DNA of 20,071 nucleotides from a virus. The translations under genes were made by a program, and so were the position numbers. Below are positions 15,855-17,739 of this stretch, in pieces (position 1 is the stretch's first letter; each line of letters opens with the position of its first letter). The stretch is from the IMG/VR virus record IMGVR_UViG_3300024062_000089, positions 1 to 20,071 of that record. One strand, written 5' to 3'. The notes below the pieces were generated by a model. That model made no database searches. It had not been told where the DNA came from and saw only the letters and a program-made list of their open reading frames with translations.

Positions 15855-15943
15855 CAATCCTTCTTCTCAGCAGTGACTAACATATAGCTAACTGCTGTCG
15901 TCTGTGTTTGCTAGATGCAGCAAGCTATCATTAAGAAGGATTG
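15855..15943 (-). promoter_or_regulatory. Three-way-junction leader covering the small terminase ribosome binding site
   Basis: A perfect 11-pair inverted repeat joins 15855-15865 (CAATCCTTCTT) with 15933-15943 (AAGAAGGATTG). Inside lie two more hairpins: 15868-15874 with 15891-15897 (CAGCAGT/ACTGCTG, 16-nt loop) and 15906-15912 with 15919-15925 (seven pairs including one G-T pair, 6-nt loop). In the minus-strand RNA the outer stem contains AAGAAGGA, the Shine-Dalgarno of the small terminase, so the closed form would block initiation. I infer a translational switch for the first late gene. A DNA-level role such as a packaging site is an alternative. Confidence 0.6.
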
Positions 15944-15976
15944 TTTATACATTGGGGCTTATATCTCATTCACTAG

Positions 15977-15999
15977 CCCCCCTCTCCCTCTCTCCCCCC
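15977..15999. repeat. Homopyrimidine mirror repeat (homopurine on the minus strand)
   Basis: These 23 bases are all C or T, with C6 at both ends and alternating CT/CCC between. The tract reads the same backwards except for two positions, making it a near-perfect mirror repeat. Such tracts can form intramolecular triplex DNA, and the G-rich strand (G6, G3, G6 runs) could form G-quadruplex-like structures or stall polymerase. It sits between the promoter region and the small terminase leader. A biological role is inference. Confidence 0.5.
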
Positions 16000-16023
16000 A
16001 TTAGGACACTATTTCTACAGTGC

Positions 16024-16053
16024 TTGTCAATAGTGACGTTACGTAACTATACT
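16024..16053 (+). promoter_or_regulatory. Rightward sigma70-like promoter
   Basis: TTGTCA (16024-16029) and TATACT (16048-16053) are 18 nt apart; each matches the consensus at five of six positions. Transcription would begin near 16060 and run through the structured region into the gene at 16687, giving a leader of about 620 nt. A second perfect -35, TTGACA at 16085-16090, has only a poor -10 (GCTAAG at 16108-16113); if active, its start would fall near 16120, just before the first long helix. Host RNA polymerase is the expected user, since no phage polymerase is visible. Confidence 0.5.
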
Positions 16054-16069
16054 AATTACCCTACGTCAC
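16033..16069. promoter_or_regulatory. Operator-like dyad over the promoter
   Basis: GTGACGT (16033-16039) is matched by ACGTCAC (16063-16069), 23 nt between, bracketing the -10 box. Within the promoter spacer lies a perfect 10-base palindrome, GTTACGTAAC (16038-16047). Overlap with a promoter is the typical place for a repressor site. The ligand is unknown; the HTH proteins encoded at 19475-19883 are candidates. A related 15-base copy lies at 17726-17740. Confidence 0.45.
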
Positions 16070-16119
16070 ACCTGATTATTCCAGTTGACACCATAAATAG
16101 CACAACCGCTAAGCGCCCT

Positions 16120-16665
16120 AGATGGTGACGCCAAGACACGCTAGTTCATAGGCATCTCCTCGCATCTGACGTGCAAGCACACTCCAGCTGATGCGCCCAG
16201 CCTTGCGTCACCCCGATGCAAACAGTCTACTCCGTGAGCACTTGAAGCGCTAACTCACCATCTTGCATAGAGTGACTTGCCGATGGCAACATCTCCCTGC
16301 CCTGCTGATTCGGCTACAAGCCCGCCCTTAGTTACTGGCTCAGACTGCCATCCAATAGAACCAAAGCTGGCAGCAAGATCTCTGACCATACTTATGCGTA
16401 TTCATTGCGGTCCACCTTCTAAAAATGATGCCTACTAAAAGACCGCCAGCCTGAGAACGAAAAGCTTAAGGCGCATCGTCCTGTCTTAGGCATGTCTGGC
16501 GTTCCCCTGTGAGTGGAGGCTGCGGTTATCCCCTGCCCGTCTTTGTTGAGCATCGGGCAGAAACAGTTCGCAACAACACTCGTTCCTCGGATATTGCGAA
16601 CTGCAAGCGCCTCTGGGCGTTTCTGCTCCGTGCTTCAAGTCGCCGTGCGGGGATAGTCCTCGCAC
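16120..16665 (+). ncRNA. Candidate large structured RNA or long structured 5' leader
   Basis: No convincing gene lies in these 546 nt, but strong helices do: 16124-16135 with 16202-16212 (11 pairs, one bulged C) enclosing 16161-16166/16190-16195; 16216-16221 with 16263-16268 enclosing 16234-16238/16254-16258; 16345-16350/16368-16373; a continuous 5' strand 16445-16460 pairing with 16496-16500, 16484-16490 and 16476-16479 (16 pairs, two bulges); 16564-16573/16594-16603 (10 perfect pairs); and 16645-16653/16657-16665 (nine pairs, one G-T). The last helix ends 9 nt before the Shine-Dalgarno of the next gene. This may be a stand-alone RNA or a leader. It matches no RNA family that I can name from sequence alone. 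A replication origin is an alternative. Confidence 0.5.
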
Positions 16666-16686
16666 CACATCACAGGAGAACTAGAC

Positions 16687-17097
16687 ATGACTAAGAAGAA
16701 CGCTACACCTACACTTTTCGATCTCAAGCTAGCGGTAATTAACCATCATAAAGGTGACCACAATGAATATCTTCGCATAAGTATTGCCAGAGATGCTTGC
16801 TACACCAGCTTCAATTCTATCGAATGGAAGTCAGAGCAAATGTCAGTAACTAAGAACGAGCTTGCAGCCCTTGCTGAATCAGCAGGACAGGAAGTTGTTG
16901 ACATTAACATCGGCAAGAAGATCTCACTCTATCGCAAGATGGAGGCTGAGTTAGCAGAGCTTCAAGAGCGTCACGAAGCAGACAAGAATGTTTACACCGA
17001 GGTAACACAAGGCGAAGTTTGGACGCACAAGCCGAAGCGCACTTACAAATCAGATGGACTTGGAGATGCCAACGAACTCAAGCGCATCTTGGGTTAA
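16687..17097 (+). CDS. Unknown early protein, first gene of the rightward block
   Basis: This 136-residue protein begins MTKKNATPTLFDLKLAVINH and has a ribosome binding site AGGAGA 7 nt upstream. Residues 85-120 form a charged helix (YRKMEAELAELQERHEADKN), probably a coiled coil, and the C-terminus is basic then acidic (THKPKRTYKSDGLGDANELK). I do not recognise a family. It is followed at once by a hairpin terminator, so it may be a separate transcription unit expressed from the long structured leader. That arrangement suggests a regulated, perhaps first-expressed, phage protein. Confidence 0.75.
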   Translation: MTKKNATPTLFDLKLAVINHHKGDHNEYLRISIARDACYTSFNSIEWKSEQMSVTKNELAALAESAGQEVVDINIGKKISLYRKMEAELAELQERHEADKNVYTEVTQGEVWTHKPKRTYKSDGLGDANELKRILG

Positions 17098-17102
17098 CCA
17101 TC

Positions 17103-17136
17103 AGGGCGGCTTAACGGTCGCCCTATTTCTTTGTTT
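17103..17136 (+). terminator. Hairpin terminator
   Basis: AGGGCG (17103-17108) pairs with CGCCCT (17119-17124) around a 10-nt loop, followed by the T-rich ATTTCTTTGTTT. It starts 6 nt after the stop of the 136-residue gene and ends before the next ribosome binding site, the expected place for an intrinsic terminator or attenuator of the first rightward unit. Confidence 0.7.
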
Positions 17137-17151
17137 ACAACAGGAGGTGTT

Positions 17152-17229
17152 ATGCCAACACCACTCGATCTCATCACAGCAGTGTCGCTCTTCGCGGCAC
17201 TGTTTCTATGCTTATCATTGCTAACTTAG
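17152..17229 (+). CDS. 25-residue single-pass membrane peptide
   Basis: An ATG at 17152 has a near-ideal Shine-Dalgarno, AGGAGG, 4 nt upstream. It encodes 25 residues, MPTPLDLITAVSLFAALFLC followed by LSLLT, with one hydrophobic segment from about residue 7 to 24 and almost no charge. The stop (TAG) runs into the AGGAGA of the next gene, so translation of the two is probably linked. Small hydrophobic phage peptides include holin-like and host-membrane-targeting toxins, but no family can be named. The strength of the ribosome binding site and the terminator just upstream support a real gene. Confidence 0.65.
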   Translation: MPTPLDLITAVSLFAALFLCLSLLT

Positions 17230-17237
17230 GAGACAGC

Positions 17238-17402
17238 ATGCTCAAGACAGTTTGGATTGCGTTCGTTGCATTCTCTTCGCCAGAAGAATGCGACCGTTAC
17301 GTCGAGCTTAACTCGGATCTAATTCATGGCGAAATACAATGCGTCATTCACCAGCACGAAGTGCCACAAGTAAAACCAAAACGAAAACCAAAAAAGGATT
17401 GA
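17238..17402 (+). CDS. Unknown 54-residue early protein
   Basis: The likely start is the ATG at 17238, with AGGAGA just upstream; an earlier in-frame ATG at 17208 lies inside the membrane peptide gene and has no ribosome binding site. The protein begins MLKTVWIAFVAFSSPEECDR, has a Cys at residues 18 and 34, and ends in a strongly basic tail (VKPKRKPKKD). The first 12 residues are hydrophobic but too short for a clear signal peptide. I do not recognise it. It lies 4 nt before the nuclease gene. Confidence 0.65.
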   Translation: MLKTVWIAFVAFSSPEECDRYVELNSDLIHGEIQCVIHQHEVPQVKPKRKPKKD

Positions 17403-17406
17403 GTAA

Positions 17407-17739
17407 ATGCCAAGCACGCCAATTCAAAAGAAGTTTCAAAGATTAAAGCAAAGCTATGGCATAGATCAAAGGTGGATAGATGCTCAGTTAGAGTGGCAAG
17501 AATATTGCTGCGATGGATGTAAGCGTCCATTCAATGAGCATGTTAGATATGTTGTAGACCATAAGCATGACACCTCAATAAAAGTTGTTCGACATCTTCT
17601 ATGTGATTCATGCAATGGAGCTTTAGGAACATTGGAAAAGCTACAAAAGAATGAAGCTGTCTTTAAAAGATTACAGCTAATAGCTCAGAGATATATGCAT
17701 TATGAAGATTTATATCCTCAACAAAGTGACGTAAGGTAA
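17407..17739 (+). CDS. Endonuclease VII-like (His-Me finger) nuclease
   Basis: This 110-residue protein has the zinc and catalytic pattern of the recombination endonuclease VII family: C35-x-x-C38 (CCDGC), then VVDHKHD (Asp51, His52, His54), then LLCDSCNGALG with C66-x-x-C69 and Asn70. Such proteins cut branched DNA (T4 gp49), resolving junctions before packaging, or act as free-standing HNH-type nickases. The length is shorter than T4 gp49 (157), lacking a C-terminal dimer domain, so junction resolution is not assured. The ribosome binding site AAGGA lies 8 nt upstream. It is downstream of two small early genes and just before a promoter-like region. Confidence 0.85.
   Translation: MPSTPIQKKFQRLKQSYGIDQRWIDAQLEWQEYCCDGCKRPFNEHVRYVVDHKHDTSIKVVRHLLCDSCNGALGTLEKLQKNEAVFKRLQLIAQRYMHYEDLYPQQSDVR

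Follow-up and report, generated by a model that had tools for sequence, protein, structure and literature searches.

An early phage gene and its inverted mirror form a 1.03-kb near-palindrome whose arms change together across relatives

Introduction

Eukaryotic hairpin-RNA loci and young MIRNA loci arise by inverted duplication of a target gene; to our knowledge, bacteria possess no such RNA interference machinery. Near-palindromes whose arms exceed 400 bp are expected to be unstable in bacteria. Several described systems nevertheless offer partial parallels to the locus presented here. Template-switch mutation in quasipalindromes produces matched changes in both arms, of all types and sometimes as multi-nucleotide clusters that alter codons (PMC7202029; PMC8604942). 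The mitochondria of Nematomorpha carry perfect inverted repeats of up to 284 bp inside protein-coding DNA (PMC6649704), and in staphylococcal phages a structured RNA, cabRNA, is transcribed from the terminase genes (PMC10686824). A targeted literature search, with many subscription journals outside its coverage, returned no description of a phage gene whose leader contains its mirror image.

We analyzed a stretch of 20,071 nucleotides (the window; IMG/VR record IMGVR_UViG_3300024062_000089), a 20-kb virus fragment in which the structural genes (terminase, portal-like and tail) point leftward and the early genes rightward. The large terminase shares 65% identity with that of Pelagibacter phage Hodr. 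A sequence-only reading had singled out positions 16120–16665 as a gene-free, helix-rich region that might be an undescribed large phage RNA. The interval is in fact the left half of a near-palindrome, the right half of which is the first rightward gene. The main feature was overlooked in that reading; the partner of the interval sits outside it.

Results

When the record was searched against itself, 16095–16516 was identified as an inverted, bulged copy of 16665–17128 (71% identity, 72 gap columns in 479, E 1e-50). The right arm (16665–17128, plus strand) contains the ribosome-binding site (RBS), the entire early gene and its terminator. The left arm (16095–16516, minus strand) is a frameshifted, inverted mirror of these three elements, with its translation broken in all frames. 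Together with the intervening loop (about 16517–16664), the arms make up a near-palindrome of 1.03 kb in which the copied gene occupies 16687–17097; as an imperfect inverted repeat with a loop, the locus qualifies as a quasipalindrome. The palindrome is no assembly accident, since relatives have their own versions of it. The early gene (plus strand) encodes 136 residues, predicted to be all-helical. Its product has no match in Pfam or PHROG, a PDB fold search with the predicted protein gave no significant match, and no phage records resembling the locus DNA or the gene product were found. A gene resembling endonuclease VII, whose family resolves DNA junctions, is located close to the palindrome at 17407–17739.

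The strength of the fold depends on the inclusion of the gene arm. Folded as a whole, 16095–17094 reaches a minimum free energy of −609 kcal/mol on the minus strand (z −23.7) and −461 kcal/mol on the plus strand (z −19.1), and in the full-arm relatives that we folded the minus strand is likewise more stable, by 100–200 kcal/mol. The interval 16120–16665 by itself is only marginally more stable than its dinucleotide shuffles, with z −1.73 on the plus strand (where 5 of 100 shuffles do as well) and −1.90 on the minus strand (2 of 100). Structure beyond chance is therefore present, and far beyond it, but as a property of both arms together.

The proposal of a large folded RNA survives in a reduced form. 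An ORF check agreed that the interval holds no credible gene. However, it is not a self-contained large RNA, as some 420 nt are a mirror of the next gene, and the suggested kinship with GOLLD, ROOL or HEARO is unsupported: covariance models matched no Rfam family anywhere in the window at the gathering score, nor in 15900–17300 when relaxed to E values up to 1. A search for tRNA and tmRNA genes found none. The helix proposed at 16124–16135/16202–16212 can be read directly from the sequence, but its bases find better partners in the gene beyond the interval. What does remain is a structured leader of about 115 nt within the palindrome loop (16550–16665, plus strand), consisting of an outer stem, a long hairpin, a small hairpin and a hairpin immediately 5′ of the RBS. 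This architecture is alike in relatives with and without long arms, with both-sided changes in 9 of its 19 consensus pairs. Two of the previously noted helices, 16564–16573/16594–16603 and 16645–16665, belong here, and both are kept in relatives with both-sided changes present. Between the arms of the palindrome, compensatory changes, which the sequence-only reading had proposed as a check, also occur and keep pairs intact, although copying at the DNA level predicts them too.

The sigma70-like site reported upstream was recovered as the predicted rightward promoter (16024–16053, TTGTCA-18-TATACT, p=0.05), located just left of the left arm. An operator-like palindrome, GTGACGTTACGTAAC, lies between its boxes, and similar sites precede later rightward promoters. 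A leftward promoter is predicted on the minus strand at 16003–16030 (TTGACA-16-TGTCCT), outside the palindrome; the two divergent predicted promoters (16003–16053) have −35 bases in common (TTGTCAA). Of the 29 relatives scanned, 23 have an exact TTGACA at the leftward promoter position, and right of the palindrome the scan found no leftward promoter consistently. The early gene is followed by an intrinsic terminator (17103–17134, plus strand), where the right arm ends; right-arm ends lie near the terminator in the full-arm clades. As the predicted rightward promoter and the terminator enclose both arms, a rightward early transcript would be expected to hold both. A phage RNA polymerase was sought in ten relatives with no match, but a control search was equally silent and the result is uninformative. 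Separately, the tract CCCCCCTCTCCCTCTCTCCCCCC (15977–15999), which lies directly upstream of the gene for the small terminase, hardly varies among distant relatives and is possibly a packaging or regulatory site.

Relatives of the early gene were collected from IMG/VR, initially as 32 loci and then as 113 matching stretches, of which 80 were kept. A permissive arm alignment overran the true arms and was dropped for a stricter one. The whole gene is mirrored in 20 of the 51 family members analyzed, and six are intermediate. Most of the remainder retain only a core stem, typically pairing about −310 to −170 with about −107 to +50 of the gene and covering the RBS, the start and the first codons; a few, such as L092, show little beyond chance. 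Full-arm members are spread over very deep protein divergence. One relative of the early gene (L127, PBGS01000047.1) comes from a contig assigned to a Euryarchaeota MAG, possibly a phage contig that was binned wrongly.

The two arms change together across relatives, and each phage's arm matches that phage's own gene. In BLAST searches, the left arm of the window matches genes of its own close clade and not those of the relatives L011–L025. At gene positions that differ between phages, pairing with the own arm is 0.903, compared to 0.263 with the arm of another phage (5085 position comparisons, nine phages), with the own alignment favoring own pairing somewhat; the result is the same for L067, the arm of which aligns almost gap-free. 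Bulge positions are partly common to deep lineages, with 22 columns bulged in at least 4 of 7 lineages against a null mean of 1.9.

The left arm is itself coding sequence in Pelagibacter phage Hodr and its relatives, where it encodes the terminase small subunit (terS). The Hodr arms align with a local score of 68, compared to a maximum of 32 in synonymous shuffles. In Hodr (L037, OQ414635.1, 11735–12900) and its relatives L039–L048, the coding sequences of the small terminase and of a divergent early gene are reverse complements of each other, with many bulges, for hundreds of bases. A putative leftward promoter (TTGACA-17-TATACT) can be read inside the Hodr left arm, in which case the terS mRNA would hold one arm only.

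Mismatches between the arms are strongly polarized by strand. In the gene zone of nine full-arm phages, mismatches that read as G·U on the minus strand (A·C on the plus strand) outnumber the reverse by 271 to 9. The other plus-strand mismatches follow the same asymmetry, with 75 A·A vs 4 U·U, 41 C·C vs 4 G·G, and 100 C·U vs 37 A·G. Plus-strand G·U is thus among the rarest mismatches, at 9 against 2457 Watson-Crick pairs. Core-only relatives show less polarity (67:15 in the RBS/start zone), and in Hodr and its relatives it is absent (5:5 in Hodr). Among one-sided changes in the closest pairs, G·U is favored over A·C. After allowing for a rough mutation supply, on the estimate of which the polarity argument also leans, minus-strand G·U is retained no better than U·U or G·A.

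Matched double changes were counted in ten close pairs (n=82) and comprise 45 transitions and 37 transversions, close to the background transition:transversion ratio of about 1.22. RNA compensation through G·U intermediates would favor transitions, and no such excess is seen; the ratio suggests DNA-level copying instead. Matched changes of all mutation types occur in both arms, as expected of template switching. Some fall in short clusters, such as four within 8 nt between the window and L010, but their clustering is not above that of all gene changes, and bulges often persist. Third-position synonymous divergence of the early gene is 2–4 times below that of its neighbors in four of six close pairs (window/L010, window/L008, L014/L015 and L022/L016) and not lower in the remaining two, while its amino-acid divergence is at least that of the neighbors in some pairs (e.g., window/L010 and L083/L084). 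No rate difference was seen between paired and bulged third positions, the bulged sites being few. Across the family, codons are mostly free to vary synonymously, and an overlapping element fixed in the codons of the gene was rejected on this ground. An adenine-only signature like that of a diversity-generating retroelement was likewise rejected from the substitution table, as C, T and G also differ.

Discussion

Our preferred reading, offered tentatively and as something short of probable, is that the likeness of the arms is a product of template switching, and that selection acts at the same time to stop the early mRNA from locking up. The palindrome would have been seeded by an ancestral leader stem spanning the RBS and first codons, which likely controls the early gene, and in some clades the palindrome would then have been extended over the gene up to the terminator. 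Arm similarity would be kept up for the most part at the level of DNA, as short tracts are copied during replication template switching in the quasi-palindrome. Since the predicted rightward mRNA holds both arms, selection would retain those mismatches and bulges that loosen it, and the mismatches retained in the clade of the window do look chosen for non-pairing in the plus-strand mRNA. Several observations count against this reading, among them a clustering of matched changes no greater than that of gene changes in general. Blind copying should erase bulges, yet these are partly common to deep lineages. The low synonymous divergence is unpredicted by neutral copying, although mosaic recombination could contribute. 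In addition, the position of right-arm ends near the terminator suggests limits set at the transcript level rather than at the DNA level.

At first sight, the strand polarity implies that a minus-strand RNA must pair. The main rival explanation accordingly posits a leftward transcript over gene, loop and mirror that forms a 400-bp minus-strand RNA hairpin under selection to pair; such an RNA might, for example, mask the antisense it carries against the early gene or serve as a dsRNA decoy. This rival would account for the more stable minus-strand folds, the near confinement of G·U to that strand, the preference for G·U among one-sided changes, the reduced synonymous divergence and the bulges common to lineages. 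Three results point elsewhere, namely the ratio of matched changes with no excess of transitions, a promoter layout in which the conserved leftward promoter lies beyond the left end of the palindrome with no consistent one to its right, and the lack of polarity in the Hodr relatives. As G·U is also no better retained than U·U or G·A, we regard such a hairpin as rather unlikely. Doubtful to a similar degree is a strand-specific device in which the leader of the early gene contains a mirror of the whole gene that is actively kept matched. The device would be either a giant leftward hairpin RNA with a role of its own or a built-in template from which short tracts are copied, driving fast amino-acid change in the early protein.

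Regulation in cis seems unlikely for a different reason. If the early mRNA folded on itself so as to hide its RBS and coding sequence, to be opened by a signal or helicase, then plus-strand G·U would be expected to be tolerated best of all mismatches, whereas it is among the rarest; this holds even though a stem over the RBS, start and first codons is present in nearly all relatives, the structured leader within the loop is conserved, and the extent of the palindrome agrees with the predicted transcript ends. A function as single-stranded DNA or as a cruciform, in an origin, packaging or recombination site, would fit a locus at the divergence point of the early and late gene blocks, where the cumulative GC skew flattens and an endonuclease VII-like gene is nearby, and would fit Hodr, in which complementarity is retained though the arms are two genes. 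However, a cruciform includes both strands and so cannot alone yield strand polarity, and the arm ends track transcript signals; we consider this improbable. Finally, the frameshifted, noncoding left arm could be taken for a recent inverted duplication that is now a decaying pseudogene. Decay would lose the match between arms, but long arms are present in members separated by very deep protein divergence and continue to fit the gene of the same phage (90% vs 26% pairing), on which basis we rejected this highly improbable account.

Despite the instability expected of such a repeat in bacteria, this palindrome persists across deep divergence, with a conserved gene as one of its arms. The locus would offer a natural record of arm-to-arm copying and of the escape of an mRNA from its own antisense, and is perhaps a new phage control element. 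It also carries a caution, in that covariation within a long inverted repeat need not imply a selected RNA structure.

Comparison with the known systems places the locus beside several of them. Like cabRNA as described, it would link a structured phage RNA to terminase genes; unlike cabRNA, which comes from those genes, it is a palindrome beside terS. With hairpin-RNA and MIRNA loci it shares an inverted gene copy that co-varies with its gene, but here mirror and gene lie in one predicted transcript. The coding palindromes of Nematomorpha are likewise long repeats in coding DNA, a likeness that extends to both arms in the Hodr relatives, but they are perfect and lie within genes, whereas the phage repeat is imperfect, has about 420 bp per arm and consists of a gene and its own leader. 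Template-switch quasipalindromes have in common with it an imperfect inverted repeat and matched changes in both arms. The described repeats are short, however, while in the phage locus an arm spans a whole gene, the likeness between arms lasts across deep protein divergence, and the mismatches are strand-polarized.
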